Assembly (NCBI GenBank): GCA_017631955.1
Contig: JAGBSJ010000010.1
Location: 1 to 49,989 of the forward strand
Direction: 5' to 3'
Length of the DNA: 49,989 nt
DNA from: Clostridia bacterium
GTDB taxonomy: Bacteria; Bacillota; Clostridia; Oscillospirales; Acutalibacteraceae
Numbering within the stretch: the first letter of the stretch is position 1; each line of letters opens with the position of its first letter. The translations under genes and the position numbers were made by a program. Below, piece after piece: positions 20,432 to 46,503 of this stretch. The notes under the pieces are model-generated. The model did no database searches. It was not told where the DNA came from and saw nothing but the letters and a program-made list of their open reading frames with translations.

Positions 20432-22261
20432 TTATTTTATTATAATTTTATATTTCTTGAGCCAATAGTTAATTTGTATAAAGTAAGCAATCGTTTGTGG
20501 TGTTGTCATCAATTGCCCATACCACGGCTCGTGTTTTTCTGTTGTTATTAGTTTCTCTAATTCACTCTTTTTTATGAATTCAAAAATTGGCGATGTTGAG
20601 TCATTTATGACTTCCTTAAGCATATCTGAAACAATGCTAAGATATTCAGGATTATGAGTTTTAGGGTATGGACTCTTTTTACGCCATAGTACCTCATTAG
20701 GCAAAATACCTTTTACTGCTTCACGTAACAATCCTTTTTCATATGATTTATAGTCTTTATACTCCCAAGGTACGGAATATAAATATTCTGCAATTCGATA
20801 ATCACAGAAGGGCACACGGACTTCTAATGCATTATACATACTCATTCTGTCTTTTCTGTCAAGAAGAGTCTGCATAAACCAATCAAGATTTAGTTTCATC
20901 ATTTCTTTCATTCGTGATTCTATAGGTGAAATACCTTGAATTTTTGATGTGTTTATTAATGTGTCTTTGTATCTTGAATACACGTAGTTTTCCGCATCAG
21001 GAACTTTAATATCATCTCGTAGAAAAGATTTTCTGTATTGTGTTGATTGTGCCCATGGGAAGCCGTTTATTGCGCGTATATCTTTATCTCTGTACCAAGG
21101 GTATCCGCCAAAAATTTCATCAGCACATTCACCTGATAATGCAACTGTACAATGTTTTTTAATTTCTTTACAAAATAACAATAATGATGAATCTACATCG
21201 CTCATTCCAGGTAAATCACGGGCATCTACTGCTTGATATAATGCGTTCGCAAGGTCTTTGTTGTCAAGAGTAATCAAATGGTGTTCACAACCAAGATATT
21301 CAACCATTTTTTTGATGTATTCGGTATCGCTATTTGGTTGGAATTTGCTTGATTTAAAATACTTATCATTATCTTTGTATGTTACAGAAAAAGTCTTTAA
21401 TTTTTTATTTTGTTTATTAAAATGCGAATTAGCAATTGAAGAGATTATACTTGAATCAAGTCCGCCAGAAAGAAATGTGCCTACAGGAACATCAGAAACT
21501 AACTGTCTTGTAACAGAATCAATTACAAGTTCCCGAACTTTTTCAACTGTCTGTTCAAAACTATCTGTATGTTCACGGTCTTTTAATGTCCAGTATTTAA
21601 TAACTTTTATACCACTTTTTGAATAATAACCACAACTAGCGGGTTTTAACTCTTTTATGTTTTTGAACACACCACAACCGGGTGTACTTCCGGGACCTAA
21701 AAACATAATTTCAGCTATAGAATTTTCATCAATTTCAGGACTTACATATTTATGTTCTAATAATGCCTTAATTTCAGAGCCAAATATAAAAGAGTTGTTT
21801 ACTACTGTGTAAAAAAATGGCTTTACACCTATTCTATCACGTGCAAAGAATAATCTTTTTTCTGCGTTGTCCCAAACTGTAAAAGCAAATATTCCATTAA
21901 ACTTGTCAACACAGTTCTCTTTCCATTGAATATAAGATTTTAAAACTACTTCAGTGTCAGAATGTCCTAAAAATTTATGTCCACATTGAATTAATTCTTT
22001 TCTAATTTCTTCAGTGTTATATAACTCACCGTTATATACAAGTGTGTATTCTTTTTCACCATATTTTGCAGTCATAGGTTGTAATCCATTTTCAATATCA
22101 ACTACACAAAGTCGTGTATGAATAAGTGCGACATTATTGTTTATATATATGCCGTTCTGGTCAGGCCCACGTGGAGCAATTACTTTTTGCATTTTAAGGA
22201 ATGAGTCCTTGTTTTCTATTATCGAGTTTGTAAATGACACTTCTCCTGCAATTCCACACAT
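20432..22261 (-). CDS. asnB: Asparagine synthetase (glutamine-hydrolysing)
   Basis: Makes asparagine from aspartate, ATP and glutamine. 609 residues. The N-terminal class II amidotransferase domain begins MCGIAG with Cys2 as nucleophile and shows APRGPDQNG and YNGELYN. The synthetase domain has the ATP pyrophosphatase loop FLSGGLDSSIISS and SGECADEIFGGYPWY. RMSMYNALEVRVPFCD is a typical AsnB block. GAGGTG precedes the ATG. ldh lies 3 bases downstream on the same strand. The divergent neighbour is a GH28-like gene. Some members of this family amidate cell-wall or natural-product substrates, but nothing nearby suggests that here. Confidence 0.93.
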   Translation of the reverse strand: MCGIAGEVSFTNSIIENKDSFLKMQKVIAPRGPDQNGIYINNNVALIHTRLCVVDIENGLQPMTAKYGEKEYTLVYNGELYNTEEIRKELIQCGHKFLGHSDTEVVLKSYIQWKENCVDKFNGIFAFTVWDNAEKRLFFARDRIGVKPFFYTVVNNSFIFGSEIKALLEHKYVSPEIDENSIAEIMFLGPGSTPGCGVFKNIKELKPASCGYYSKSGIKVIKYWTLKDREHTDSFEQTVEKVRELVIDSVTRQLVSDVPVGTFLSGGLDSSIISSIANSHFNKQNKKLKTFSVTYKDNDKYFKSSKFQPNSDTEYIKKMVEYLGCEHHLITLDNKDLANALYQAVDARDLPGMSDVDSSLLLFCKEIKKHCTVALSGECADEIFGGYPWYRDKDIRAINGFPWAQSTQYRKSFLRDDIKVPDAENYVYSRYKDTLINTSKIQGISPIESRMKEMMKLNLDWFMQTLLDRKDRMSMYNALEVRVPFCDYRIAEYLYSVPWEYKDYKSYEKGLLREAVKGILPNEVLWRKKSPYPKTHNPEYLSIVSDMLKEVINDSTSPIFEFIKKSELEKLITTEKHEPWYGQLMTTPQTIAYFIQINYWLKKYKIIIK

Positions 22262-27393: not shown

Positions 27394-30300
27394 ATGGCAA
27401 AAAGAACAGATATCAAAAAGATTCTTATTATCGGCTCTGGTCCTATTGTTATTGGACAAGCTGCTGAATTTGACTACGCAGGTACTCAGGCATGCCTTGC
27501 ACTTAAAGAAGAGGGCTATGAAGTTGTCCTTTGCAACTCTAACCCTGCAACTATTATGACTGACACTATTATCGCTGATAAGGTATATATGGAACCTTTG
27601 ACACTCGAATACGTTGCAAAGATTATTCGTCACGAGCGTCCTGATGCTATCATTCCTGGTATCGGCGGTCAGACAGGTCTTAACCTTGCTATGCAGCTTG
27701 AGAAAAAAGGTATTCTTAAAGAATGTTGTGTTGAACTTCTTGGTACTTCAAGCGCTTCTATTGAGCGTGCAGAAGACCGTGAAATGTTTAAAGAACTTTG
27801 CGAATCTATCGGTGAACCTGTTATTCCTTCAGAGATTACTTACTCTTTAGAAGAAGCAAAAGAAGCTGCAAACCGTATCGGTTATCCTGTTGTTCTTCGC
27901 CCTGCATTCACTCTTGGTGGTACAGGCGGTGGCTTTGCTTACAATGATGAAGAACTTATGGAAATCGGTGTTAATGCATTTAACCTTTCTCCTGTTCATC
28001 AGGTTCTTATTGAAAAGTCTGTAAAGGGTTATAAAGAAATTGAGTTCGAAGTTATGCGTGATTCAAATGACCACGCTATTACTATCTGTGGCATGGAAAA
28101 TATTGACCCTGTTGGTGTTCATACAGGTGACTCATGCGTTGTAGCTCCAATTATGACACTTAGTAAAGAAGACGAAAAGATGCTCAACGATTCAGCTATC
28201 AAGCTTATCAAGGAGCTTAAGATTGAAGGCGGTTGTAATGTTCAGTTCGCTCTCAATCCTAATTCTTCAGAATATTATCTTATTGAAGTTAACCCTAGAG
28301 TTTCTCGTTCTTCAGCACTTGCATCAAAGGCATCAGGTTATCCTATTGCTCGAGTTACCGCAAAAATTGCTGTAGGTATGGCTCTTGAAGATATTCAGAT
28401 TGCAAACACAAATGCTGCTTTTGAGCCAAAACTTGACTATGTTATTGCTAAATTACCACGTTTCCCATTTGATAAGTTTGCTTCCGCTACCAATAAGCTT
28501 GGTACTCAGATGAAGGCAACAGGCGAAATCATGGGTATCGGTTCTAATCTTGAAGAAGCTCTTCTTAAAGGTATTCGTTCTCTTGAAATCGGTGCTAAGC
28601 ACCTTTATCTCTCAAAGTTTGACAACATGAGTGTTGAAGAACTTCTTGACTATATCACAGAATTCCGTTCTGACAACATCTTTGCTATTGCAGAACTCAT
28701 CTATCATGGTGTTTCTCTTGAAAAGATTCATGAAATCACAATGATTACTCCATATTTCCTTGAGGCAATCAAAAATATTATTGATATGGAAGAAACTCTT
28801 CGTGTTAATAAAGATGTTACAACTCTTACGGCAGCTAAAAAGATGGGCTTTAGCGATAAATATATCGCACGTCTCTGGAATTGTAATGAGATGGATGTTT
28901 ATAATATGCGTAAGGAAAACAACCTTTTCCCTGTGTTCAAAATGGTTGACACTTGCCATACCGGTGCGTATATTCCTTACTTCTATTCTTCATATACAGG
29001 TGAAAATGCTTCACGCTTAACTGATAAGAAAAAAATTATCGTTCTTGGTGCAGGTCCTATCCGTATCGGTCAGGGTGTTGAATTTGATTACTCAACAGTT
29101 CATGCAGTTATGACAATCAAAAATGCAGGTTATGAGGCAATTATTATCAATAATAACCCTGAAACTGTTTCAACTGACTATACAACTGCTGATAAACTTT
29201 ATTTTGAGCCACTTACTCCTGAAGATGTTATGAATATCGTAGAGTTTGAAAAGCCAGAAGGTGTTATAGCTTCACTTGGTGGTCAAACAGCTATTAACCT
29301 TGCACAACCTCTTCATGACCGTGGTGTTAAAATTATTGGTACTGATTGTGCTGCTATTGACCGCGCAGAAGATAGAAATGCATTTGAAAACCTTCTTAAT
29401 GAACTTAATATTCCTCGTGCTAAGGGTAAAGCCGTAACAAATATGGAAGATGGTATCGCAGCAGCTGCTGAAATCGGTTATCCTGTTCTTGTTCGTCCTT
29501 CATTCGTTCTTGGTGGACGTGCAATGCAAATTGTTGCAAATGAAGAACAACTTCGTCATTACCTTAAAACTGCTGTTGAAATTGATGAAGATAAACCAGT
29601 TCTTGTTGATAAATATATTCAAGGTCGTGAAGTTGAAATCGACGCAATCTGCGACGGCAGAGATGTGTTTGTTCCTGGTATTATGGAACTTGTTGAACGT
29701 ACAGGCGTTCACTCAGGTGACTCAATTTCAGTTTATCCTCCATTCTCAATTTCAAACAAAGTCAAGGGCATAATTCTTCAATACGCAAAGAAACTCGGTC
29801 TTGGTATTGGTATTGTAGGTCTTTTCAATATTCAGTTTATAGTTGATGAGCACGACGATGTTTATATTATTGAAGTTAATCCACGTTCATCACGAACAGT
29901 GCCATTCCTTTCAAAGGCAACAGGGTATTCGCTTGCCGATATTGCTACTGAAGTTATTCTCGGCAAGAGTCTTAAAGAACAGGGCTTCTTTGATATTTAT
30001 CCAGATGAAAAAGAACGCTGGTATGTTAAAGCTCCAGTATTCTCATTTAATAAGATTCGTGGTCTTGACGCTTATCTTTCACCTGAAATGAAATCTACTG
30101 GTGAAGCAATCGGATATGACCGTACAAGAACTCGTGCGGTTTATAAAGCACTTCAGGCATCAGGTATGCACCTTCAAAATTACGGTACAGTATTCTGCAC
30201 TATCGCTGATAAAGATAAGGAAGAAGCACTTCCTCTTATCAGAAGATTCTATAAGCTTGGTTTCAATATTCAAGCTACGGCAGGTACTGCTAATTTCCTT

Positions 30301-30561
30301 AAGAATAACGGTATTCGTACTCATGCTCTTGCTAAAATCAGTGAAGGCAGTAATGAAATCCCAGACGCTTTACGTCAAGGACATATTGCTTACTTTATTA
30401 ACACAAAAGACCCTGGCTCACACAACACAAATGACGGCGCTCAGCTTCGTCAGGTTGCAACAGAGTACAATGTGACAATGTTCACTTCTCTTGACACTGT
30501 AGACACTCTTCTTGATGTTCTTGAAGAAACTACACTTACAATTTCAACAATTGATGCATAA
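27394..30561 (+). CDS. carB: Carbamoyl-phosphate synthase, large subunit
   Basis: ATP-dependent synthesis of carbamoyl phosphate from bicarbonate and ammonia delivered by CarA. 1055 residues, full length. Two homologous ATP-grasp halves are seen, starting GSGPIVIGQAAEFDYAGTQA and GAGPIRIGQGVEFDYSTVHA. Each has conserved VRPAFTLGGTGGG-like / VRPSFVLGGRAM blocks, and both share NPRVSRSSALASKA-type / NPRSSRTVPFLSKA motifs. The C-terminal ~140 residues form the allosteric MGS-like domain. GGAGG precedes the ATG. The glutaminase subunit gene carA is not in this operon as seen, so it must be encoded elsewhere or the enzyme uses ammonia. Confidence 0.97.
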   Translation: MAKRTDIKKILIIGSGPIVIGQAAEFDYAGTQACLALKEEGYEVVLCNSNPATIMTDTIIADKVYMEPLTLEYVAKIIRHERPDAIIPGIGGQTGLNLAMQLEKKGILKECCVELLGTSSASIERAEDREMFKELCESIGEPVIPSEITYSLEEAKEAANRIGYPVVLRPAFTLGGTGGGFAYNDEELMEIGVNAFNLSPVHQVLIEKSVKGYKEIEFEVMRDSNDHAITICGMENIDPVGVHTGDSCVVAPIMTLSKEDEKMLNDSAIKLIKELKIEGGCNVQFALNPNSSEYYLIEVNPRVSRSSALASKASGYPIARVTAKIAVGMALEDIQIANTNAAFEPKLDYVIAKLPRFPFDKFASATNKLGTQMKATGEIMGIGSNLEEALLKGIRSLEIGAKHLYLSKFDNMSVEELLDYITEFRSDNIFAIAELIYHGVSLEKIHEITMITPYFLEAIKNIIDMEETLRVNKDVTTLTAAKKMGFSDKYIARLWNCNEMDVYNMRKENNLFPVFKMVDTCHTGAYIPYFYSSYTGENASRLTDKKKIIVLGAGPIRIGQGVEFDYSTVHAVMTIKNAGYEAIIINNNPETVSTDYTTADKLYFEPLTPEDVMNIVEFEKPEGVIASLGGQTAINLAQPLHDRGVKIIGTDCAAIDRAEDRNAFENLLNELNIPRAKGKAVTNMEDGIAAAAEIGYPVLVRPSFVLGGRAMQIVANEEQLRHYLKTAVEIDEDKPVLVDKYIQGREVEIDAICDGRDVFVPGIMELVERTGVHSGDSISVYPPFSISNKVKGIILQYAKKLGLGIGIVGLFNIQFIVDEHDDVYIIEVNPRSSRTVPFLSKATGYSLADIATEVILGKSLKEQGFFDIYPDEKERWYVKAPVFSFNKIRGLDAYLSPEMKSTGEAIGYDRTRTRAVYKALQASGMHLQNYGTVFCTIADKDKEEALPLIRRFYKLGFNIQATAGTANFLKNNGIRTHALAKISEGSNEIPDALRQGHIAYFINTKDPGSHNTNDGAQLRQVATEYNVTMFTSLDTVDTLLDVLEETTLTISTIDA

Positions 30562-35081: not shown

Positions 35082-35104
35082 ATTTCTGTTAAAAATTAAT
35101 AATA

Positions 35105-35174
35105 CCGTGTAACTGACGGAATCAAGTGGAGCACCACAGAGGAGCACGGGATTTTTTAGCCGACCGTCTGGGCA
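35105..35174 (+). promoter_or_regulatory. ZTP (pfl) riboswitch aptamer
   Basis: Senses ZTP/ZMP, intermediates that accumulate when 10-formyl-THF limits purine synthesis. Pairings seen: CCGTG (35105-35109) with CACGG (35145-35149), hairpin GTGG/CCAC (35126-35137), and the long-range GACGG (35115-35119) with CCGTC (35164-35168). The conserved 3' tract CCGTCTGGGCA (35164-35174), preceded by AGCCGA, and the 5' GTGTAACTGACGGA match my knowledge of the pfl motif. The position directly upstream of purE, and a terminator overlapping its 3' end, fit the known ON switch for purine and one-carbon genes. Confidence 0.88.
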
Positions 35175-35211
35175 GTTCTTCTTGTATAAAACAGGATAGG
35201 ACTGTCCTTTT
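35170..35211 (+). terminator. Riboswitch-controlled terminator (expression platform)
   Basis: 10-bp stem GGGCAGTTCT (35170-35179) with AGGACTGTCC (35198-35207), including two G-U pairs, then TTTT and a second T run at 35215-35220. The 5' arm reuses the conserved GGGCA of the aptamer, so ligand-bound aptamer and terminator are mutually exclusive. Confidence 0.82.
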
Positions 35212-35231
35212 ATGATTTTTTGGAGGTAATT

Positions 35232-35726
35232 ATGAAAAAAGTTGGTATTGTAATGGGAAGCGATAGTGACCTTCCTATCATAAAAAAAGCTACTGCAGTT
35301 CTTGATGATTTAGGTATTCCTTATACAGTAAATATCTATTCTGCTCACAGAACACCTGAGCAAGCACGCGATTTCTCAATGAATGCTAGAGTAAACGGTT
35401 ATGGTGCTCTTATTGCGGCGGCAGGTATGGCAGCTCATCTTGCAGGTGCAGTTGCTGCTAATACAACACTTCCAGTTATCGGAATTCCTTGTGCATCTTC
35501 ATATCTTGATGGTATGGATGCTCTTCTTTCAACTGTACAGATGCCATCAGGTATTCCTGTTGCAACAGTCGCAATCAATGGCGGTGCAAATGCGGCTTTA
35601 CTTGCTGCTCAAATCATCGCGGTCGAAGATAAAGAGCTTGCAGATAAGCTTGATAAAATGCGTAAAGATGCAGCAGAAGTTGTTCTTAAAAAAGATGCAG
35701 ATGTAATGTCTAAATTAAATTCATAA
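35232..35726 (+). CDS. purE: N5-carboxyaminoimidazole ribonucleotide mutase / AIR carboxylase
   Basis: Forms CAIR in purine synthesis. 164 residues. GSDSDLP phosphate loop, YSAHRTPE and [21 protein letters not shown] are as in class I PurE. The usual AGGAAHLPG block reads [10 protein letters not shown]. purK, the normal partner of class I PurE, is not in the operon. The ATG at 35232 is chosen with GGAGG at 35222-35226; the longer TTG form would include that site. First gene after the ZTP riboswitch. Confidence 0.95.
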
Positions 35727-35758: not shown

Positions 35759-36439
35759 ATGGAAAAAATTTACACAGGTAAAACAAAAGACGTATTCAAA
35801 CTCGAAAATGGCAATTGCCTTCTTAAATTTAAGGACGATTGTACAGGTAAAGACGGCGTATTTGACCCAGGCGAAAATGCAGTAGGTCTTACAATTGACG
35901 GTGTTGGTGATGTAAACCTTCGTATGTCAATTTATTTCTTTGAAAAAGTTAACGCAGCAGGTATTAAAACACATTATGTAAGTGCAAATCTTGAAGATAC
36001 AACAATGGAAGTACTTCCTGCAAAGGTATTTGGTCATGGCCTTGAAGTTATCTGCCGTCATAAAGCAGTTGGTAGCTTTATTCGTCGTTATGGCGATTAT
36101 ATTGAAGAAGGTGCTGACCTTCCTGCATATGTTGAAATGACATTCAAAAACGATGAAAAGGGCGACCCACTTGTAATTAAAGATGCTCTTGTTGCGCTTG
36201 GTGTTATGACAGACAAACAGTATGACGATATTAAAGAAATGACTCAGAAAATTACTCAAATCGTTGCTGACGACCTTAAAGAGAAGGGTCTTGTTCTTTA
36301 CGATATTAAATTTGAATTTGGTTATAACGCTGACGGTGATGTAATGCTTATCGATGAAATCGCATCAGGTAATATGCGTGTTTATAAAGATGGTAAATAC
36401 ATTGACCCAATGACACTTTCAGAACTTTTCTTCGCGTAA
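35759..36439 (+). CDS. purC: Phosphoribosylaminoimidazole-succinocarboxamide synthase
   Basis: Joins CAIR and aspartate (ATP-dependent) to give SAICAR. 226 residues. The N-terminal [26 protein letters not shown] and [16 protein letters not shown] blocks are diagnostic. AAAGGAG precedes the ATG. It lies 32 bases after purE and 12 bases before the purF-like gene. Confidence 0.95.
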
Positions 36440-36451
36440 GAGGTATATTTC

Positions 36452-37876
36452 ATGGGTGGTTTTTTTGGCGCAGTCAGTAAAAATGACACTGTTTTAGATG
36501 TGTTCTTTGGAACTGACTATCACTCTCATCTTGGTACTCGTCGTGGTGGTATGGCTGCTCACGACGAAAGTATCGGATTACAAAGAAAAATTCATAAAAT
36601 TGAAAATTCGCCATTTAGAACAAAGTTTGAAAACATTTCAAATCAGATGAAAGGTAAATCAGCTATAGGTTGTATTAGTGATTCTGATGCACAACCGTTG
36701 CTTGTTCGTTCAAAACTAGGTTTATATGCAATTTGTATTATTGGTTTAATCAACAATAAAGAAAAGCTTGTTGAAGATTATCTTTTCTCAAATGGTGGCC
36801 ATTTTGGTGCTATGACTAACGAGGGCATTAACTCTACTGAACTCGTTGCGGCTATTATTAACCAGAAAGATAACTTTGCAGACGGAATTGCATATGCTCA
36901 AGGTCTAATTGATGGAACAGCTTCTATTTTAATTCTTACTGATGATGGTAAAATTATTGCGGCGCGTGATAGATTAGGTAGAATTCCGGTTTTAATTGGC
37001 GTTCGTGATGATGGTTACTGTGTTTCATTTGAAGATTTTGCATATAAAAAACTTGGCTATTCAGATTATAAGGAATTAGGACCGGGTGAAGTTGTTGAGT
37101 TAACAGCTGATAATGCATCTATTCTTCGTGAAGCGGGTAAAGATATGAAAATCTGTGCATTTTTATGGTCTTATTACGGATATTCTACATCTTGCTATGA
37201 GGGTGTTAATGTAGAAGTAATGAGATACAAAAATGGCAAGATTATGGCTGAATGTGACCGCGAAAATGGTATTGCTCAAGACATTGACTATGTAAGTGGT
37301 GTTCCTGATTCCGGTACTCCTCATGCAATTGGTTATGCAAATGAGAGTGGCATTCAGTTTGCTCGTCCATTCATCAAATATACACCAACTTGGGCAAGAA
37401 GTTTTACTCCTACAAATCAGAATGAGCGTAATAGAGTTGCTAAGATGAAGCAAATTCCTGTTCACGATTTAATTCAAGATAAAAAATTGCTCTTTGTTGA
37501 TGATAGTATTGTTCGTGGAACTCAACTTCGTGAGACTGTTGAATTCCTTTATGAAAATGGTGCCAAAGAAGTGCATATTCGTTCTGCTTGTCCACCAATT
37601 ATGTACGGTTGTAAATTCTTAAATTTCTCACGTGCAACGTCAGATATGGAACTTATTGCTAGAAGTACAATTGTTGAGTTAGAAGGGGAAGATGGTTTTA
37701 AATATATTGATGAATATATTGATTCTTCTACTGAACGTGGTAAAAAATTAAGAAGTGCTATTTGTGAAAAACTACACTTCACATCTCTTGAATTTCAATC
37801 TATTGATGGAATAATAAAAGCTATAGGACTTCCGGCTGATAAGGTGTGCACCTACTGTTGGAACGGAAAAGAATAA
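36452..37876 (+). CDS. purF: PurF-like phosphoribosyltransferase with degenerate glutaminase site
   Basis: 474 residues, homologous over its whole length to amidophosphoribosyltransferase, the first step of purine synthesis. The PRPP loop LLFVDDSIVRGTQ (about 346-358) and PDSGTPHAIGYA are intact. The protein begins MGGFFG where functional enzymes have the nucleophilic Cys as CGxFG. The oxyanion Asn-Gly of the glutaminase site is also not recognisable (GLINNKEK), and HRGQEG reads RRGGMA. By contrast C235, C387, C466 and C469 align by context with the four [4Fe-4S] cysteines of the Bacillus enzyme. Ammonia-dependent synthesis of phosphoribosylamine, or a partner glutaminase, is inferred. AGAGG sets the start; no upstream Cys is available. 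Confidence 0.85.
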   Translation: MGGFFGAVSKNDTVLDVFFGTDYHSHLGTRRGGMAAHDESIGLQRKIHKIENSPFRTKFENISNQMKGKSAIGCISDSDAQPLLVRSKLGLYAICIIGLINNKEKLVEDYLFSNGGHFGAMTNEGINSTELVAAIINQKDNFADGIAYAQGLIDGTASILILTDDGKIIAARDRLGRIPVLIGVRDDGYCVSFEDFAYKKLGYSDYKELGPGEVVELTADNASILREAGKDMKICAFLWSYYGYSTSCYEGVNVEVMRYKNGKIMAECDRENGIAQDIDYVSGVPDSGTPHAIGYANESGIQFARPFIKYTPTWARSFTPTNQNERNRVAKMKQIPVHDLIQDKKLLFVDDSIVRGTQLRETVEFLYENGAKEVHIRSACPPIMYGCKFLNFSRATSDMELIARSTIVELEGEDGFKYIDEYIDSSTERGKKLRSAICEKLHFTSLEFQSIDGIIKAIGLPADKVCTYCWNGKE

Positions 37877-37898: not shown

Positions 37899-38951
37899 AT
37901 GGAACATAAAAATTCATTTTCTGCTAGCTATGCAGCTGCAGGCGTAGATATTACTGCTGGTTATAAATCAGTAGAATTAATGAAAAAGCACGTTGCTAGA
38001 ACTCGTAATGAAGGTTCTGTGGATGACGTGGGCGGTTTTGGCGGATGCTTTGACCTTAGCTGTGTTGCTGGAATGGAACATCCTATTTCTGTTTCTGGTA
38101 CTGACGGTTGTGGTACTAAAGTTAAATTAGCTATTCTTATGGATAAACATGATACAATTGGCATTGATGCGGTTGCTATGTGTGTTAATGACATTATTTG
38201 TGTTGGTGCAAAGCCATTATATTTCTTGGATTATATTGCTTGTGGCAAAAATGTTCCTGAAAAGATTGCAGAAATTGTTGGCGGCGTTGCTGAAGGTTGT
38301 GTTCAGTCAGGTTGTGCACTTATCGGTGGCGAAACTGCAGAACATCCTGGTCTTATGCCAGAGGAAGATTATGACCTTGCTGGTTTTGCAGTAGGTGTAG
38401 TTGATAAGCCCAAAATGATTGATAATAGCAAGATGGCTGTTGGTGATGTAGTTATTGCTCTTCCTTCAACAGGTATTCATTCTAATGGTTTCAGTTTATG
38501 CCGTAAGGTTTTTGATATTGATAATAACAATCCTGAACTTTACGTAGAGCGTGAAGAATTAGGTGGCAAAAGTATTGCAGAGGCATTACTTGTTCCTACA
38601 AAGATTTATGTTAAACCAGTTCTTGCTCTTTTAGAAAAAGTTAATGTAAAAGGTATTTCTCATATTACAGGTGGTGGATTCTACGAAAATATTCCACGTT
38701 CAATTCCTGATGGCTTATGCGCAAAAATTGATAAGTCAGCTGTTAAGGTGCTTCCTATTTTTGATGTTATTGCTAAATGGGGAAACATTCCTGAACGCGA
38801 TATGTATAATACATATAACATGGGTGTTGGTATGAGCATTGTTGTACCAGCCAATGAAGTAGAACTTTCTCTTTCAATTCTTAAAGAAAACGATATTGAT
38901 GCTTATGTAATCGGCGAAATTATCAAAGGCGATGAGAAGGTGCTTTTATAA
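37899..38951 (+). CDS. purM: Phosphoribosylformylglycinamidine cyclo-ligase
   Basis: ATP-dependent closure of FGAM to AIR. 350 residues. Family blocks: YAAAGVDITAGYK at the N-terminus, SGTDGCGTKVKLA, MCVNDIICVGAKPLYFLDYIA, GGETAEHPG and HITGGGFYENIPR. ATAGGAG precedes the ATG. The stop overlaps the purN start by one base (TAATG). Confidence 0.96.
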   Translation: MEHKNSFSASYAAAGVDITAGYKSVELMKKHVARTRNEGSVDDVGGFGGCFDLSCVAGMEHPISVSGTDGCGTKVKLAILMDKHDTIGIDAVAMCVNDIICVGAKPLYFLDYIACGKNVPEKIAEIVGGVAEGCVQSGCALIGGETAEHPGLMPEEDYDLAGFAVGVVDKPKMIDNSKMAVGDVVIALPSTGIHSNGFSLCRKVFDIDNNNPELYVEREELGGKSIAEALLVPTKIYVKPVLALLEKVNVKGISHITGGGFYENIPRSIPDGLCAKIDKSAVKVLPIFDVIAKWGNIPERDMYNTYNMGVGMSIVVPANEVELSLSILKENDIDAYVIGEIIKGDEKVLL

Positions 38952-39577
38952 TGTATAAAAGAATTATAGTTCTTGTTTCTGGTGGAGGTACAAATCTCCA
39001 AGCACTTATTGATGCAGAAAAAAGAGGGGAGTTAGGTAATGGCAAAATTACTTGTGTAATTGCCTCAAAAGCAGATGCTTATGCTCTTACTCGTGCAGAA
39101 AATAACGGAATTAAAACAAGAACACTTATAAGAAAAGATTATGCAGATATTGCATCATATAGTTGTGCAATGCGAGATTTGCTTATTGAAGAAAAAGCGG
39201 ATTTAATCGTATATGCGGGCTTTATGACCATACTTGATGAAAATGTCTGTGATGCCTTCCAAAATAAAATGATAAATGTACATCCAGCACTTATTCCATC
39301 GTTCTGTGGAAAAGGTTTTTATGGATTACACGTTCACGAAGAAGCGTTAAAAAAAGGCGTAAAAGTATCAGGTGCAACTGTTCATTTTGTTACTGCTGAA
39401 TGTGATGCGGGACCAATAATCCTTCAAAAAGCAGTTGATGTAATGAATGATGATACACCTGAAACATTACAGATAAGAATTATGGAACAAGCTGAGTGGA
39501 AGATTCTTCCAAAAACAGTACAACTTTTCTGTGACGATAAAATTGTAGTTGAAAACGGTAAAACAAATATATTATAA
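38951..39577 (+). CDS. purN: Phosphoribosylglycinamide formyltransferase (folate-dependent)
   Basis: Transfers formyl from 10-formyl-THF to GAR. 208 residues. SGGGTNLQALID phosphate loop, catalytic Asn and His in NVHPALIPSF, the clostridial variant FCGKGFYGLHVHEEAL, and the catalytic Asp in DAGPIILQ. Its folate dependence matches control of this operon by a ZTP riboswitch. purO follows after 16 bases. Confidence 0.96.
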   Translation: MYKRIIVLVSGGGTNLQALIDAEKRGELGNGKITCVIASKADAYALTRAENNGIKTRTLIRKDYADIASYSCAMRDLLIEEKADLIVYAGFMTILDENVCDAFQNKMINVHPALIPSFCGKGFYGLHVHEEALKKGVKVSGATVHFVTAECDAGPIILQKAVDVMNDDTPETLQIRIMEQAEWKILPKTVQLFCDDKIVVENGKTNIL

Positions 39578-39593
39578 TCGGAGGATTTTTCAA

Positions 39594-40310
39594 ATGGAAA
39601 TTAAGTCACTTGAAAACGAACTTAATTCTCTTGCTTATCATGGCAGAGGCATTATAATCGGTAAAAGCGTAGATGGTAAAAAAGCTATTACAGCTTATTT
39701 TATCATGGGCAGAAGCGTTAATAGCCGCAACAGAGTTTTTGTTGCTGAAGGCGACGCTATGCGTACAAAGGCATTTGATGAGTCAAAAATGACAGACCCT
39801 CATCTTATTATCTATTATCCAGTAAGAGTTCTTGGTAATAAAACTATTGTTACTAATGGTGACCAAACTGATACAATCTATGAACTTATGGATAAACAAA
39901 TGACTTTTGAACAGGCACTTCGTACTCGTGAATTCGAAGATGATGCTCCTAACTATACACCTCGTATTTCAGGTATTATTCATCACGAAAATGGTGAAAT
40001 GAATTACGCTATGTCAATTCTTAAATCAGCTGATGGTGATGGCTCATCATGTCAGAGATATACATATGCTTATTCAAATCCTCTTGCAGGTCGCGCAAAG
40101 TTTATTCATACATATAAGTGTGATGGTAATCCACTTCCAAGCTTTGAAGGTGAGCCAAAAACACTCCTGCTTCCTGATGTAGATATTGATACAATGACTG
40201 ATATCATTTGGAAAAACCTTAATGAAGACAATAAAGTTTCTCTTTTCGTAAGATATATTGATTTAGAAACAAACGAAGTTGAAACAAGAATTGTAAACAA
40301 GAATGTGTAA
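39594..40310 (+). CDS. purO: IMP cyclohydrolase, PurO-like (archaeal type)
   Basis: Closes FAICAR to IMP, the last step of the pathway. 238 residues. It matches what I know of the PurO/PF07826 family: N-terminal YHGRGIIIGKSVDGKKAITAYFIMGRS, then NRVFVAEGD and DPHLIIYYPVRV. It has no similarity to the MGS-like cyclohydrolase half of PurH. The ATG at 39594 has GGAGG upstream; the longer form would overlap purN and include that site. The adjacent gene encodes only the transformylase half of PurH, so the pair replaces bifunctional PurH. Confidence 0.85.
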   Translation: MEIKSLENELNSLAYHGRGIIIGKSVDGKKAITAYFIMGRSVNSRNRVFVAEGDAMRTKAFDESKMTDPHLIIYYPVRVLGNKTIVTNGDQTDTIYELMDKQMTFEQALRTREFEDDAPNYTPRISGIIHHENGEMNYAMSILKSADGDGSSCQRYTYAYSNPLAGRAKFIHTYKCDGNPLPSFEGEPKTLLLPDVDIDTMTDIIWKNLNEDNKVSLFVRYIDLETNEVETRIVNKNV

Positions 40311-40321
40311 GGAGATTTAAA

Positions 40322-41506
40322 ATGAAAGAATTTGAACTTAAATATGGTTGTAACCCTAACCAGAAGCCATCAAAAATTTATATGGAAGATGGTTCAGAGC
40401 TTCCTATCGAAATTTTGAATGGCAGACCTGGATTTATCAATTTCCTTGATGCATTTAACTCATGGCAGCTTGTAAAAGAAATTAAAGATATTCTCGGAAT
40501 GCCGGCCGCTACATCATTCAAGCATGTTAGCCCAACATCTGCTGCTGTAGGTGTAAAGCTTCCTGAATCACTCAAAAAAGCTTGTTTTGTTGATGATATC
40601 CCTGACCTTGATGCATCTCCACTTGCTTGCGCTTATGCTCGTGCTCGTGGTACAGACCGAATGTCATCTTTCGGTGACTGGATTGCTCTTAGTGATGAAT
40701 GTGATGCTACAACAGCTAAACTTGTTGCTCGTGAAGTTTCTGATGGCATCATTGCTCCAGGTTATTCAGCTGAAGCTCTTGAAATTCTTAAGGGCAAGAG
40801 AAATGGTAACTATAATATCGTAAAAATTGATGCTAATTATGTTCCTGCAGTTCAAGAAAAGAAACAAGTATTTGGTATCACTTTTGAACAAGGAAGAAAC
40901 AACTTCAGAATTGATGAAGACCTTCTTTCAAATATGGTTACTGAAAATAAAGAATTCCCTGAAGAAGCAAAACGTGACTTGATTATCGCGCTCATTACTC
41001 TTAAATATACACAGTCAAACTCTGTTTGCTACGCTTATGACGGACAAGCAATCGGTGTGGGTGCAGGTCAGCAGTCAAGAATTCACTGCACACGCCTTGC
41101 AGGCACTAAGGCAGATACATGGCATCTTCGTCAGCATCCAAAAGTACTTGCACTTCCTTTCCGCGATGACATTCGTCGTCCTGACAGAGATAATGTTATT
41201 GACGGTTACATCAATAAGAACGAAGAAGATGTTTGTGCAGATGGTATCTGGCAGAAATACTTTAAAACTCAACCTGAACCACTTACAGCAGAAGAAGCAA
41301 GAGCTTATCTTGATACAATTACAGGTGTTTCAGTTGGTTCTGATGCATTCTTCCCATTCAGTGATAACATTGAAAGAGCACGCAAGAGCGGTGTTTCATA
41401 TATTGCTGAACCAGGTGGCTCAATCCGTGATGATGTTGTTATTGATTGTTGTAATAAATATGGAATTGCAATGGCATTCACAGGAATGCGCTTATTCCAC
41501 CACTAA
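40322..41506 (+). CDS. AICAR transformylase, stand-alone (PurH C-terminal domain, PurV-like)
   Basis: Formylates AICAR with 10-formyl-THF to give FAICAR. 394 residues, corresponding only to the transformylase domain of PurH. Blocks in order: LKYGCNPNQKPSKIY, the catalytic SFKHVSP (Lys67, His68), YTQSNSVCYAYDGQAIGVGAGQQSRIH (split here for length: YTQSNSVCYAYDG then GVGAGQQSRIH), GVSVGSDAFFPFSDNIERA, EPGGSIRDD and the terminal GMRLFHH. The MGS-like IMP cyclohydrolase domain is absent and is supplied by the upstream PurO-like protein. AGGAG precedes the ATG. Symbol purH is often applied to these proteins but would imply bifunctionality. Confidence 0.9.
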   Translation: MKEFELKYGCNPNQKPSKIYMEDGSELPIEILNGRPGFINFLDAFNSWQLVKEIKDILGMPAATSFKHVSPTSAAVGVKLPESLKKACFVDDIPDLDASPLACAYARARGTDRMSSFGDWIALSDECDATTAKLVAREVSDGIIAPGYSAEALEILKGKRNGNYNIVKIDANYVPAVQEKKQVFGITFEQGRNNFRIDEDLLSNMVTENKEFPEEAKRDLIIALITLKYTQSNSVCYAYDGQAIGVGAGQQSRIHCTRLAGTKADTWHLRQHPKVLALPFRDDIRRPDRDNVIDGYINKNEEDVCADGIWQKYFKTQPEPLTAEEARAYLDTITGVSVGSDAFFPFSDNIERARKSGVSYIAEPGGSIRDDVVIDCCNKYGIAMAFTGMRLFHH

Positions 41507-41521
41507 TTTTTGAGGTTAACT

Positions 41522-42787
41522 ATGAAAATAATGGTTGTCGGTGGTGGCGGTAGAGAACACGCTATCATCAAAAAAATAAAAGAAAATAAAGAAGTTACAG
41601 AAATCTATGCATTACCTGGTAACGGTGGTATTGCGGCAGATGCTACTTGTGTAGAAATCGGTGCTACTGATATTGAAAAGATTGTATCTTTTGCAGTAGA
41701 TAATAAGATTGACTATGCAGTAGTAGCACCTGATGACCCATTGGTTTTGGGTTGTGTTGATGCTCTTGAAGAAAAGGGTATTCTTTGTTTCGGACCAAGA
41801 GCAAATGCAGCTATTATCGAAGGTAGTAAAATTTTCTCAAAAAATTTAATGAAGAAGTATGGTATTCCTACTGCTACATACGAAGTTTTTGAAGATATGG
41901 AAGCTGCTCTCAATTATCTTGAAACTGCTCCTATTCCAACAGTTATTAAAGCTGATGGTCTTGCACTTGGTAAAGGTGTTATTATTGCCCAAACTCGCGA
42001 TGAAGCAAAAACTGCAGTCCGTGATATGATGGAAGGCGGTGTTTTTGGTGAATCTGGCTCACGCGTAGTTGTTGAAGAATTCCTTACAGGTCCTGAAGTA
42101 TCAGTTCTTGCTTTTACTGATGGTAAGGTTGTAAAACCTATGGTTTCTTCAATGGACCACAAGCGTATCGGCGATAATGACACAGGTCTTAACACTGGCG
42201 GTATGGGAACAGTAGCACCAAACCCATATTACACAAAGGCAATAGCTGACGAGTGTATGGAATCAATTTTCCTTCCTACAATCAACGCTATGAATGCAGA
42301 AGGCAGGACTTTCAAAGGATGTCTTTACTTCGGTCTTATGCTCACACCAAACGGACCCAAAGTTATTGAATATAACTGTCGTTTCGGTGACCCTGAAACA
42401 CAGGTTGTTCTTCCGCTTCTTGAAAGTGATTTGCTTGACATAATGCAAGCAACAACTAATGGCACTTTAGCCGATACAGAAGTTAATTTTGCAGACAAAC
42501 ACGCTTGTTGTGTTATTTTGGCCTCTAATGGTTACCCAACATCTTACAAAAAAGGGTTTGAGATGGCCTTTACAGAAGAGGCACTTGCAGCTACTTTTGT
42601 AGCAGGTGCAAAGAATGAAAACGGCAAACTTGTTACTGCAGGTGGTCGTGTTACAGGTACAACTGCTATTGCAGATTCTCTTGCAGAAGCAATAAAAGAG
42701 GCATATCGTTTGTCTGATGGCGTTCAGTTTGAAGGTGCTTATCGTAGAAGTGATATTGGTAAGCGTGCACTTTTGGCTTCAAACTAA
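41522..42787 (+). CDS. purD: Phosphoribosylamine-glycine ligase
   Basis: ATP-grasp ligase making GAR from phosphoribosylamine and glycine. 421 residues. GGGGREHAI at the N-terminus, AYEVFEDM-type linker, VIKADGLALGKGVI, the MSSMDHKRIGDNDTGLNTGG block, and EYNCRFGDPETQVVLP (metal/ATP site). The ATG at 41522 has GAGG upstream; the longer form with a TTG start is rejected. It lies 15 bases after the transformylase gene. Confidence 0.96.
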   Translation: MKIMVVGGGGREHAIIKKIKENKEVTEIYALPGNGGIAADATCVEIGATDIEKIVSFAVDNKIDYAVVAPDDPLVLGCVDALEEKGILCFGPRANAAIIEGSKIFSKNLMKKYGIPTATYEVFEDMEAALNYLETAPIPTVIKADGLALGKGVIIAQTRDEAKTAVRDMMEGGVFGESGSRVVVEEFLTGPEVSVLAFTDGKVVKPMVSSMDHKRIGDNDTGLNTGGMGTVAPNPYYTKAIADECMESIFLPTINAMNAEGRTFKGCLYFGLMLTPNGPKVIEYNCRFGDPETQVVLPLLESDLLDIMQATTNGTLADTEVNFADKHACCVILASNGYPTSYKKGFEMAFTEEALAATFVAGAKNENGKLVTAGGRVTGTTAIADSLAEAIKEAYRLSDGVQFEGAYRRSDIGKRALLASN

Positions 42788-42810: not shown

Positions 42811-45800
42811 ATGGTTTATCGCATATTTGTTGAAAAGAAGACTGGCTTAGATAACGAAGCAAAAGGTCTTCTTAATGAAGCAAAACACTTACTCGGCATT
42901 GAAAATTTAGAAGATATTCGTCTTTTCAATCGCTATGATGCAGAAAATATTACTGAAGAATTGTTCGACTACGCTGTAAAAACAGTTTTTTCAGAGCCAC
43001 AGCTTGATAATGTATCAACTGGTGTTGAAGTTTCTGATGCATATGTTTTTGCAGTAGAAGCTCTTCCAGGTCAATTCGACCAGAGAGCGGACTCTGCAGC
43101 TCAGTGTATTCAGATTATCTCTCAGGGCGACCGTCCTCTTGTCCGTACTGCAAAAGTTTATGCACTTTATGGTGATTTGACAGATGCTGATATCAAAGCA
43201 TTCAAAAATCACGTAATCAATGCAGTTGAAAGCCGTGAAGCAGCCCTTGAGTTACCTGAAACACTCGCTGCTGAATATGCTGCTCCTGAAACAGTTGCTA
43301 CTGTTGATGGCTTTATCACTATGGATGAAACAGCCCTTGCAAATCTCCTTGATGAAAAAGGACTTGCAATGGACCTTGATGACCTCAAGTTCTTACAAGC
43401 ATATTTTAGAGATACAGAACACAGAGACCCTACTATTACAGAAATTCGTGTTGTTGACACTTATTGGTCTGACCATTGTCGTCATACAACATTCTCTACA
43501 CATCTTGATAATGTCCGTATTGATGACCCTGCAGTACAAGAAGCTTATGAGCGTTATCTTGCTGCAAGAGTAGAAGTTTACGGTGAAGAAAAAGCAGCAG
43601 CTCGTCCTCAGACATTGATGGACATTGCAACTATTGGTACGAAAACACTTAAGAAGCGCGGACTTCTTCCTGAACTTGATGAAAGTGAAGAAATCAATGC
43701 TTGTTCAATTCATGTTACTGCAACGGTAAACGGTGAAGACCAGGATTGGCTTCTTATGTTTAAGAATGAAACTCATAACCATCCTACAGAAATTGAGCCA
43801 TTTGGTGGCGCAGCTACATGTATCGGTGGTTGTATTCGTGACCCGCTTTCAGGTCGTGCTTATGTTCATCAGGCAATGCGCGTAACAGGTGCAGGTGACC
43901 CAAGAAAGACTATTGCAGAAACTTTAGATGGTAAACTTCCACAGCGTAAAATTTGTCAGACAGCAGCAGCGGGTTATTCTTCTTATGGTAACCAGATTGG
44001 TCTTGCTACAGGTCATGTTGCAGAAATGTATCACGAAGGATTTGTTGCAAAGCGTATGGAATGCGGTGCAGTAGTTGCTGCTGCTCCTGCTTATAATGTT
44101 CGTCGTGAACGTCCAGCTCCAGGTGATGTTATCGTTCTTCTCGGTGGACGTACAGGCCGCGATGGTATCGGTGGTGCTACTGGCTCATCAAAGAGCCATA
44201 ATATGAAATCTCTTACAACAATGGCTTCTGAAGTTCAGAAGGGTAATGCTCCCGAAGAAAGAAAAATTCAACGCCTTTTCCGTAATGCAGAGGTTACTCG
44301 TTTAATCAAGCGTTGTAATGACTTTGGTGCAGGTGGTGTATCTGTTGCTATCGGCGAACTTGCTCCTGGTCTTCAAATTGACCTTGATGCAGTTCGTAAA
44401 AAATATGAAGGTCTTGACGGAACAGAAATTGCTATTTCTGAATCACAAGAACGTATGGCAGTTGTTGTTGCAGCTGAAGATGCTGATAAATTTATTGCGT
44501 TTGCTCAAGAAGAAAACCTTGAAGCATACCGTGTTGCCGTTGTTACTAAAGAAGAACGCATGGTAATGAAGTGGAAGGGTAATATCATTGCTAATCTTAG
44601 TCGTGAATTCCTTGACACAAATGGTGCCGTTAAGCATATGAATGTTACAGTTACGAAAAAAGACTTTTCAGTGTTAAGCAAGGCAATGTACGGCTCATTA
44701 CGTGAAATGGCATCTGACCTTTGTACGGCAAGCCAGAGAGGTCTTGTTGAGCGCTTTGACTCAACTATTGGTGCAGGTAGTGTTGTTATGCCTTATGGTG
44801 GTAAGCGACAGCTTACTCCAACTCAGTCTATGGCTGCAGTATTACCAGTGCTTCCAGGTCAAGAAACAGACCAAGCAAGCGTATTCAGCTGGGGATGCGA
44901 CCCTGACCACCTTTCAGTTGACCCTTACACAGGTGCTCGCGCATCAATTTATAATTCTGTTGCAAAACTTGTTGCAGCAGGTTGTGATTATAAACTTGCA
45001 TATCTTACATTACAGGAATTCTTTGAACGCCTTAAAACTGAACCTGAGCGTTGGGGCAAACCATTTGCAGCTCTCCTTGGTGCATTTGATGCACAGTTAG
45101 AGTTGAACGCTGCCGCTATTGGTGGTAAAGACTCAATGTCAGGTACTTTCCTTGATTTGGATGTTCCACCAACACTTATTTCATTCGCAATTGCTCCTAT
45201 TAAGAAACAAGATGTAATAAGCCCTGAATTTAAAGAGGCAAATCATCCTGTATATCTCTTCGGTGCAACTGATGAGAGTGCTGACTCTCTCAAAGCAACT
45301 TGGGAAGCATTCCATAACCTTTGCAAAGAAGGTAAGGTAAAAGCTTCATGGGCAGTTGAACGTGGTATCGGCGAAGCAGTTATGAAGATGTCATTTGGTA
45401 ACAATATCGGTTTTAGTTCATCTGCAGAACTTAAAGAAAACTGGCATCTTGGTATGTGGGGCTTCATTGTAGCAGAACTTACTGAAGATGTTGTGATTCC
45501 AGGCGTAATGAAAATCGGTACAACTACTGAAGAGCCAGTTATTAAGCTTGAAGACGATAGTGCTACAATTCAAGAACTTTATGAATTGCACACTGCAACG
45601 CTTGAAGATGTATATCCAACAAAAGCTAAAGAAGATAAGGGTGAAATTCCTACATATTCTTTTGAAGGTAAATGTGATATTGCTCCTGCAAATAAAGTTG
45701 CTAAACCAAAAGTTCTTATTCCTGTATTCCCAGGTACAAACTGTGAATACGACTCTGCTCGTGCAGTAGAAAAAGCAGGTGCTGAAGCAGAAATCTTCGT

Positions 45801-46503
45801 AATTAGAAACCTTACTGCAGAAGATGTTGCAAGAAGTGTTGAAGGTTTCTCAGCAAAGGTTAGAGAAAGCCAGATGATTTTCATCCCAGGTGGATTCTCC
45901 GGTGGTGACGAACCAGACGGTTCAGCTAAGTTTATTACTGCATTCTTCCGTAACCCTGCAGTTAAAGAAGCTGTTACAGACCTTCTTGATAATCGTGATG
46001 GCCTTATGTGCGGTATCTGTAATGGTTTCCAAGCACTTATTAAGCTTGGCCTTGTTCCTTACGGAAAGATTATTGATACTGATGAAAATTGTCCTACACT
46101 TACATTTAATAACATCAGTCGTCATCAAAGCAGAATCGTTCATACAAGAATCGCGTCAACAAAATCTCCATGGCTTTCCCTTATGAATGTTGGCGATGTT
46201 GTGAATGTGCCTATTTCTCACGGTGAAGGTAAATTCCTTGCTTCTCCTGAGCTTATTGCAGAGCTTGCTGCAAATGGACAGATTGCTACACAGTATGTTG
46301 ACCTTGATGGTAATGCTACTGCAAATATTGACTTTAATCCAAATGGTTCATTGTGTGCTATTGAAGGTATTACTTCTCCTGATGGCCGTGTATTCGGTAA
46401 GATGGGACATAGCGAACGTATTGGCGATGGTCTTTATAAGAATGTTCCTGGCGAATACGATATTCGTATGTTTGAAGCAGCTGTAAAGTATTTTAATAAA
46501 TAA
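42811..46503 (+). CDS. purL: Phosphoribosylformylglycinamidine synthase, single-chain (PurL-PurQ fusion)
   Basis: Converts FGAR to FGAM using glutamine and ATP. 1230 residues, a large fused enzyme of the clostridial type. The N-terminal PurS-like part is followed by the DTYWSDHCRHTTF linker, the first AIRS-like domain (KNETHNHPTEIEPFGGAAT), a second domain with AIGGKDSMSGTF, and a C-terminal class I glutaminase. The last has PVFPGTNCEYDSA, FIPGGFSGGDEP, the nucleophile Cys1070 in CGICNGFQAL, and SHGEGKF (His). GGAGG precedes the ATG. Last gene of the operon, closed by a strong hairpin terminator. Confidence 0.97.
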   Translation: MVYRIFVEKKTGLDNEAKGLLNEAKHLLGIENLEDIRLFNRYDAENITEELFDYAVKTVFSEPQLDNVSTGVEVSDAYVFAVEALPGQFDQRADSAAQCIQIISQGDRPLVRTAKVYALYGDLTDADIKAFKNHVINAVESREAALELPETLAAEYAAPETVATVDGFITMDETALANLLDEKGLAMDLDDLKFLQAYFRDTEHRDPTITEIRVVDTYWSDHCRHTTFSTHLDNVRIDDPAVQEAYERYLAARVEVYGEEKAAARPQTLMDIATIGTKTLKKRGLLPELDESEEINACSIHVTATVNGEDQDWLLMFKNETHNHPTEIEPFGGAATCIGGCIRDPLSGRAYVHQAMRVTGAGDPRKTIAETLDGKLPQRKICQTAAAGYSSYGNQIGLATGHVAEMYHEGFVAKRMECGAVVAAAPAYNVRRERPAPGDVIVLLGGRTGRDGIGGATGSSKSHNMKSLTTMASEVQKGNAPEERKIQRLFRNAEVTRLIKRCNDFGAGGVSVAIGELAPGLQIDLDAVRKKYEGLDGTEIAISESQERMAVVVAAEDADKFIAFAQEENLEAYRVAVVTKEERMVMKWKGNIIANLSREFLDTNGAVKHMNVTVTKKDFSVLSKAMYGSLREMASDLCTASQRGLVERFDSTIGAGSVVMPYGGKRQLTPTQSMAAVLPVLPGQETDQASVFSWGCDPDHLSVDPYTGARASIYNSVAKLVAAGCDYKLAYLTLQEFFERLKTEPERWGKPFAALLGAFDAQLELNAAAIGGKDSMSGTFLDLDVPPTLISFAIAPIKKQDVISPEFKEANHPVYLFGATDESADSLKATWEAFHNLCKEGKVKASWAVERGIGEAVMKMSFGNNIGFSSSAELKENWHLGMWGFIVAELTEDVVIPGVMKIGTTTEEPVIKLEDDSATIQELYELHTATLEDVYPTKAKEDKGEIPTYSFEGKCDIAPANKVAKPKVLIPVFPGTNCEYDSARAVEKAGAEAEIFVIRNLTAEDVARSVEGFSAKVRESQMIFIPGGFSGGDEPDGSAKFITAFFRNPAVKEAVTDLLDNRDGLMCGICNGFQALIKLGLVPYGKIIDTDENCPTLTFNNISRHQSRIVHTRIASTKSPWLSLMNVGDVVNVPISHGEGKFLASPELIAELAANGQIATQYVDLDGNATANIDFNPNGSLCAIEGITSPDGRVFGKMGHSERIGDGLYKNVPGEYDIRMFEAAVKYFNK

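Follow-up and report, generated by a model that had tools for sequence, protein, structure and literature searches.

Glutamine is the textbook nitrogen donor at the committed step of purine synthesis. The window (the whole stretch of 49,989 nucleotides that we analyzed, from the Clostridia assembly designated here G000) contains a purF-like gene (36452..37876, plus strand) that probably departs from this rule. Its 474-amino-acid product, encoded in a single open frame, begins MGGFFG, and alignment places the Gly of codon 2 (36455..36457, plus strand) at the position of the N-terminal nucleophile Cys of canonical enzymes. What, then, is the nitrogen donor of such a protein? The original prediction, which recognized the Gly, offered three answers: free ammonia, ammonia supplied by another protein, or a canonical purF elsewhere in the genome. 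Hereafter, V designates the PurF type with the dead glutaminase, including that of the window, and C the canonical, Cys-bearing PurF.

The Gly is not an artifact of gene calling or sequencing. The in-frame stop codon of purC lies five codons before the initial Met of V (LFFA, stop, EVYF, then MGGFFG), and the other two frames have no Cys-Gly-x-Phe-Gly start within the 150 bases upstream; together these rule out an upstream start that restores the Cys. We aligned 122 V proteins (126 were found in the loci retrieved, window included, before short and duplicate sequences were dropped) with 89 of 92 C proteins. The Cys1 column holds Gly in 120 V sequences, Ser in one and a gap in one, and Cys in 89/89 C. 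A sequencing error hiding the Cys in the window is therefore excluded, because the relatives carry Gly at the nucleophile position.

The rest of the glutamine site is lost as well, as had been predicted from the altered NGN and HRGQEG landmarks. With Cys1, Arg73, Asn101 and Asp127 taken to follow E. coli PurF numbering, no V protein has the N-terminal Cys of class II glutaminases (0/122), and Arg73 is deleted together with its 8-residue loop in 122/122 (the junction lies at 36674..36679, plus strand, in the window). Asn101, the Asn of HNGN, is replaced by Ile, Val or Thr in 122/122, and Arg26, the Arg of HRGQ, by Leu in 122/122. The Asp127 column, which is gapped, holds Asp in 1/122 V compared to 88/89 C, and counting back from the conserved Glu130 again gives Asp in 1/122 V. 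The oxyanion Gly is retained in 121/122. The loss of the nucleophile, the Arg loop and the Asn makes glutamine hydrolysis by V very unlikely.

Conversely, the features of the phosphoribosyltransferase half that the original prediction described as intact are conserved throughout the V proteins. The window protein has the DDSIVRGT motif in its PRPP-binding loop (VDDSIVRGTQ, 37496..37525, plus strand), and D350-D351 and R355-T357 are among the 61 near-invariant positions common to V and C. Four cysteines align with those of B. subtilis PurF, which we take to be the ligands of its [4Fe-4S] cluster: Cys235 (37154..37156), Cys387 (37610..37612) and the Cys466-T-Y-Cys469 motif (37847..37858), all on the plus strand. 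The first three are Cys in 122/122 V proteins and the fourth in 121/122, so V has the predicted ligand set of a [4Fe-4S]-type PurF. Indeed, the best solved-structure matches of the window protein and of a V profile are PurF enzymes of the B. subtilis type (PDB 1ao0 and 1gph), to which V aligns over most of its length and with which it shares the PRPP loop and the four cysteine positions. V differs from these enzymes in the absence of Cys1, the Arg73 loop and Asn101, in the replacement of Asp127 in 121/122 sequences, and in having its own inserts, near-invariant residues and clade.

Profile searches reflect this mixture of features. The only strong NCBIfam match of the window protein, TIGR01134 (PurF, EC 2.4.2.14), scored 165.4 bits over residues 3–436, under the cut-off of 350; hence, the protein is not filed as canonical PurF. 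The class II glutaminase half, apparently dead, spans approximately residues 1–231 and gives a weak Pfam match to GATase_7, a domain recognized in 39/39 V proteins scanned; the phosphoribosyltransferase half is intact.

The inactive domain is not decaying: its column entropy is low (mean of 1.13 in V versus 1.41 in C for the glutaminase half) and codon differences are mostly synonymous. The window gene and a 91% identical relative (L005) differ at 190 synonymous and 45 non-synonymous codons, divided into 88 and 21 in the glutaminase half and 102 and 24 in the other. This pattern indicates that purifying selection acts on both halves of V. Furthermore, V has near-invariant residues of its own: H24, S25, L27, R45, H48 and an insert with F55, R56, K58 and F59. 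Such strong conservation might be expected of a docking or channel surface, and a separate glutaminase could dock in trans on the dead domain and channel ammonia to it, as in two-subunit amidotransferases. We scanned the surroundings of V for the Cys motifs of class I glutaminases and the N-terminal Cys motifs of class II, and within 6 kb of the gene in 125 loci the only candidate besides PurL was one GlmS, a motif scan being blind to distant genes. The suggestion that another protein supplies the ammonia thus found no candidate among the neighbors, and we regard a partner glutaminase as improbable.

We consider it probable, with good though not full confidence, that V makes phosphoribosylamine and takes the nitrogen for it from free ammonia. 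The phosphoribosyltransferase half would condense PRPP directly with NH3 from the cytosol, and the inactive half would be kept as a structural domain, perhaps also for ammonia entry or regulation; H24, R45, H48 and the F55–F59 insert are candidates for these roles. V would serve ammonia-rich conditions, and the Cys-bearing PurF, where present, would often serve nitrogen scarcity. We infer the PurF reaction, the NH3 donor and the ammonia-rich role alike from sequence. Replacement of Cys1 by Ala or Ser in E. coli PurF is reported to abolish the use of glutamine but not that of ammonia (PMC3261824). In vivo use of free ammonia has also been described for the single-domain (type N) NAD synthetase (PMC3376133), which belongs to an amidotransferase family but lacks glutaminase; this enzyme is unrelated and has no such domain, whereas V keeps an inactive one. 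Of the three alternatives first offered, free ammonia is the one best supported by the dead site across V, the V-only genomes with purD and the ammonia-type partner enzymes described below. A further analogy, and no more than that, is mammalian carbamoyl-phosphate synthetase I, which uses free ammonia and retains an inactive glutaminase domain, albeit of class I and in a different reaction.

The genomic context places V in purine synthesis. In the window, V is separated by 12 bases from purC upstream and by 22 bases from purM downstream, in an operon with gaps of -1 to 32 bases and the order PurE (35220..35726), PurC (35759..36439; over the Pfam cut-off, with TIGR00081 below its own), V, PurM (37899..38951), PurN (38951..39577), a PurO-like IMP cyclohydrolase (PF07826, 39588..40310), a stand-alone AICAR formyltransferase (PRK07106, 40322..41506), PurD, the user of phosphoribosylamine (41525..42787), and PurL, the FGAM synthase (42811..46503), all on the plus strand. 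The class I glutaminase domain of PurL keeps its Cys and His-x-Glu motif. A ZMP/ZTP riboswitch (RF01750, 65.3 bits) precedes purE (35099..35180, plus strand), as it does the V operons of 4/7 relatives scanned. The original prediction had V as the only purF in a complete operon. The operon is not complete in the usual sense: purB is absent from it, and the PurO-like cyclohydrolase and formyltransferase (39588–41506) take the place of PurH in IMP formation. V is the sole PurF detected in G000, in an assembly of 1.40 Mb that is 77.65% complete. The other TIGR01134 matches were GlmS and an AsnB-type protein, with no Cys-bearing PurF in the assembled part and approximately a fifth of the genome missing. 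The window itself encodes an AsnB-type asparagine synthase with the N-terminal Cys kept (MCGIAG, 20432–22261, minus strand).

V is not peculiar to this genome. In a tree (FastTree) of 62 of the 122 V and the 89 C proteins, the V sequences formed a clade of their own with support of 1.0 on a stem of 1.92 substitutions per site. The best 80 loci listed in a scan of named sequences all had Clostridia or Bacillota titles, and V adjoined purE, purC or purM in 78 of them. Searches by tblastn recovered V at 47–53% identity in four plasmid-labeled records, from Peptoclostridium acidaminophilum, Bacteroides finegoldii, Parabacteroides distasonis and Phocaeicola massiliensis, and in the first three the protein starts MGGLFG or MGGFFG; the V proteins of P. 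acidaminophilum and B. finegoldii have the accessions WP_025436666.1 and WP_007756110.1. V is, therefore, a monophyletic Clostridia subfamily that is present in Bacteroidota too. We also searched a panel of 292 genomes from the same class as the window, each at least 90% complete, and identified V (E below 1e-100) in 84, one of which (G009) was counted from a partial match. These matches confirm the widespread MGGFFG subfamily in anaerobes that the original prediction had suggested. Two of the plasmid-labeled records (NZ_OY725932.1 and NZ_OY725754.1) carry eno or rplU/rpmA and look like pieces of chromosome. A V-type protein with 47% identity was also found on a contig of the IMG/VR viral collection (L238, 4001–5338), which may be host DNA.

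The panel also indicates whether V can be the only PurF of a genome. C scored over the TIGR01134 cut-off in 226/293 genomes (the panel plus G000), and the panel divides into 57 genomes with both proteins (V+C), 27 with V and no over-cut-off C (V-only), 168 with C only and 40 with neither; the group lists hold 68 genomes without an over-cut-off C and the tally 67, so one genome is misplaced. One V-only genome, G139, has C matches below the cut-off that are probably pieces; it is included where V-only totals 27 and left out where the total is 26. The V-only genomes represent 17 families, or 16 without G139. The purD gene is present in 57/57 V+C, 26/27 V-only and 165/168 C-only genomes, compared to 6/40 genomes with neither PurF, 4 of which have partial C matches. 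For example, G211, a single contig that is 99% complete, has no C, and its V belongs to a full pur operon. Within the stretch fetched around V, purE, purC and purM were not found beside the gene in 18/27 V-only genomes.

These distributions bear on the possibility that V is a regulatory or moonlighting paralogue, with phosphoribosylamine coming from a canonical PurF that was missed or non-enzymatically from ribose-5-phosphate and ammonia. Three points are in keeping with this idea: 57/84 V genomes also have C, G000 is only 78% complete, and PurF-independent formation of phosphoribosylamine is reported in Salmonella (PMC3485032). However, the 27/84 V genomes that are V-only at 90% completeness or more, a single-contig genome among them, are too many for random gaps in assembly. 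Furthermore, V retains the PRPP and phosphoribosyltransferase residues, and a remnant of C in one relative (G351) points to real loss. A paralogue role is accordingly doubtful in our judgment, with little probability attached to it.

The G351 remnant comes from the genus of the window, where 24 of 30 genomes (G000 included) have V by score, one of them in two pieces, and 21 of the 24 also have C. The exceptions are G000, G347 (97% complete) and G351 (98% complete), in which V occurs without an intact C. In G351 the V gene is intact and canonical purF survives as two pieces between intact pyrG and carA: a 5' piece matching residues 4–66 (63 residues, 63% identity) and a 3' piece matching residues 433–475 (43 residues, 42% identity). 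Although misassembly cannot be wholly excluded, the remnant indicates a real loss of canonical purF. It lies in a cluster encoding a GltB-like protein, GdhA, GS III, an Amt-PII fusion, AsnB, PurC, PurA, PurB, fused GuaA, PyrG, CarA and CarB. The fusion of an ammonium transporter to a P-II domain lies inside the glutamine cluster at L234 (4423–6183). With purD kept in V-only genomes and only a remnant of C in G351, V can, on the evidence of gene content, stand as the only PurF.

Whether this holds for the window's own genome depends on its unassembled fifth, where an ordinary Cys-PurF could reside and make V merely a second copy. The presence of C in 21 of the 23 V-bearing congeners speaks for such a gene. 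However, the clean, near-complete G351 and G347, whose V proteins are the closest to that of the window (90.7 and 89.9% identity), have no intact C, and the V proteins of the V+C congeners that we fetched are only 56–79% identical to it, save that of G344 (91%), a genome with 9% contamination in which V sits on a 3.9-kb contig. An unassembled Cys-PurF is thus unlikely, yet it deserves more weight than a paralogue role or a partner glutaminase; it would bear on the genome of the window alone and does not conflict with the use of ammonia by V. Because the clean congeners with the closest V show no intact C, the genome of the window is probably, if not certainly, V-only. The suggestion of a canonical purF elsewhere therefore holds for most V genomes of the class and for most congeners of the window but not for its nearest relatives.

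We retrieved 40 C loci from V+C genomes (20 of the genus and 20 of the class) and 20 from C-only genomes; these loci and the genomes for companion searches were hand-picked, most of the C-only loci from among the highest scores. C lies outside the pur operon and beside genes for GS, GDH, AsnB, a GltB-like protein (a class II glutaminase-domain protein), PyrG or CarA in 19/40 V+C loci and 0/20 C-only loci. All C-only loci have purM in the flank (20/20) and none has a nitrogen marker (0/20). A looser protein-level annotation placed a CarA-like match near C in one of them (L154), which does not appear in the tblastn annotation behind these counts. Seven C clusters of the genus also encode an ANTAR regulator. 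C was inside the pur operon in 13/40 V+C loci (two in tandem with V and one with CarA in the flank) and beside neither nitrogen markers nor the pur operon in 8/40, so the split is not universal. V and canonical purF occur side by side, in both orders, at L132, L133, L202, L212 and L213.

Carbamoyl-phosphate synthase shows a related pattern. The window has a pyr operon upstream of the pur genes (pyrC-carB-pyrK-D-F-E-B-I) with carB, for the large subunit, between pyrC and pyrK (27394..30561, plus strand) and no carA beside it or found elsewhere in the G000 assembly. Across the panel (carA in 200 genomes, carB in 238, asnA in 163), CarB occurs without CarA in 13/25 carB-bearing V-only genomes, representing 9 families, versus 3/57 V+C genomes (Fisher P = 4e-6) and 18/144 C-only genomes (P = 3e-5), with P-values that ignore relatedness. 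CarA is still present in 11/26 V-only genomes. CarB copies outnumber CarA copies in 14/24 V-only (G139 left out), 34/57 V+C and 37/144 C-only genomes, counting one copy in each of seven genomes whose matches were judged split. In the single-contig genome G167, C is grouped with carA and carB, and another carB lies immediately before V; CarB also directly precedes V in G132, and in G279 it does so with one small ORF between.

GMP synthase, searched in 79 panel genomes and G000 and sorted into long and short GuaA by open-frame length, follows the same trend. Only the short form (329–363 amino acids) was found in 14/26 V-only genomes, from 8 families, compared to 0/28 V+C and 2/25 C-only genomes; of the other V-only genomes, 7 have the long form and 5 none or a partial match, and 1 C-only genome has no match. 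The GuaA of G000 is short, and three short GuaAs pass GMP synthase models. In G020, a GMP synthase without a glutaminase domain directly follows V (L194, 1191–2174, minus strand). A PurF-like gene beside V in the same genome proved on reading to be GlmS. In 19 regions around short GuaA (L214–L232; G000, 13 V-only genomes and five from controls or genomes with both GuaA forms), reading for motifs revealed no class I glutaminase immediately next to the gene, and L232 has one four ORFs upstream. Other glutaminase parts thus tend to be lost from V-only genomes as well, which favors free ammonia over a glutaminase acting in trans.

At E 1e-30, the CTP synthase PyrG (TIGR00337) was not found in 17/26 V-only genomes or in G000 but was found in 12/12 V+C and 11/12 C-only genomes (50 genomes and G000 searched). 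The PyrG-less V-only genomes include G014, G015, G046, G053, G099, G140, G218 and G279, all 96–99% complete. Physical linkage is possible among C, PyrG and CarA; it makes their absences non-independent, and a single event may account for part of the pattern. AsnA, considered as a further ammonia-type partner, showed no association (17/26 V-only versus 99/168 C-only, P = 0.67).

Gene content thus suggests that separate ammonia and glutamine enzyme sets exist. A broader proposal, which we advance tentatively and at slightly less than even confidence, is that many gut Clostridia have a parallel ammonia set (V, CarB without CarA and glutaminase-less GMP synthase) and a glutamine set for times when ammonia is scarce (Cys-PurF, CarAB, fused GuaA, PyrG and AsnB, whose genes cluster with those for glutamine synthetases, GDH, the GltB-like protein, the Amt-PII fusion and the ANTAR regulator). 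Some lineages, probably that of the window among them, would have given up glutamine as the nitrogen source of phosphoribosylamine and, to some extent, of carbamoyl phosphate and GMP. If so, the missing PyrG would point to another, undescribed route to CTP.

Table 1 of PMC3376133 has no glutaminase-less GuaA (730 genomes) or CarAB (600), the term purF is absent from the main text of that paper, and bacterial GMP synthetases are given as two-domain proteins in PMC10526850. Among the literature matches listed, in which subscription journals are thinly covered, there was no account of a glutaminase-dead PurF subfamily. Mlab_0150 of Methanocorpusculum labreanum would differ from V in that it is described as a fairly recent duplicate accompanying a Cys-bearing PurF and not as a subfamily.

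Should V use free ammonia, ammonia would be the donor at the committed step in V-only, purine-synthesizing genomes, nucleotide synthesis would be coupled to gut ammonia levels, and the phosphoribosylamine step is predicted to be resistant to glutamine analogues. The association of V with CarB and GuaA that lack glutaminase makes a wider question directly testable, namely whether free ammonia feeds nucleotide synthesis in some anaerobes. A subfamily of this kind would also explain why the window protein falls below the PurF cut-off and why V proteins are annotated unevenly, as amidophosphoribosyltransferase in Bacteroides and Peptoclostridium and as a hypothetical protein in Parabacteroides. 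At the loci from these three (L239, L240 and L241), pepT follows V, and gcvT comes next in the two Bacteroidota loci (Bacteroides and Parabacteroides). These are genes of peptide and glycine breakdown and, possibly, sources of ammonia. A tandem glycine riboswitch lies near one V operon (L037, 8385–8546, minus strand).
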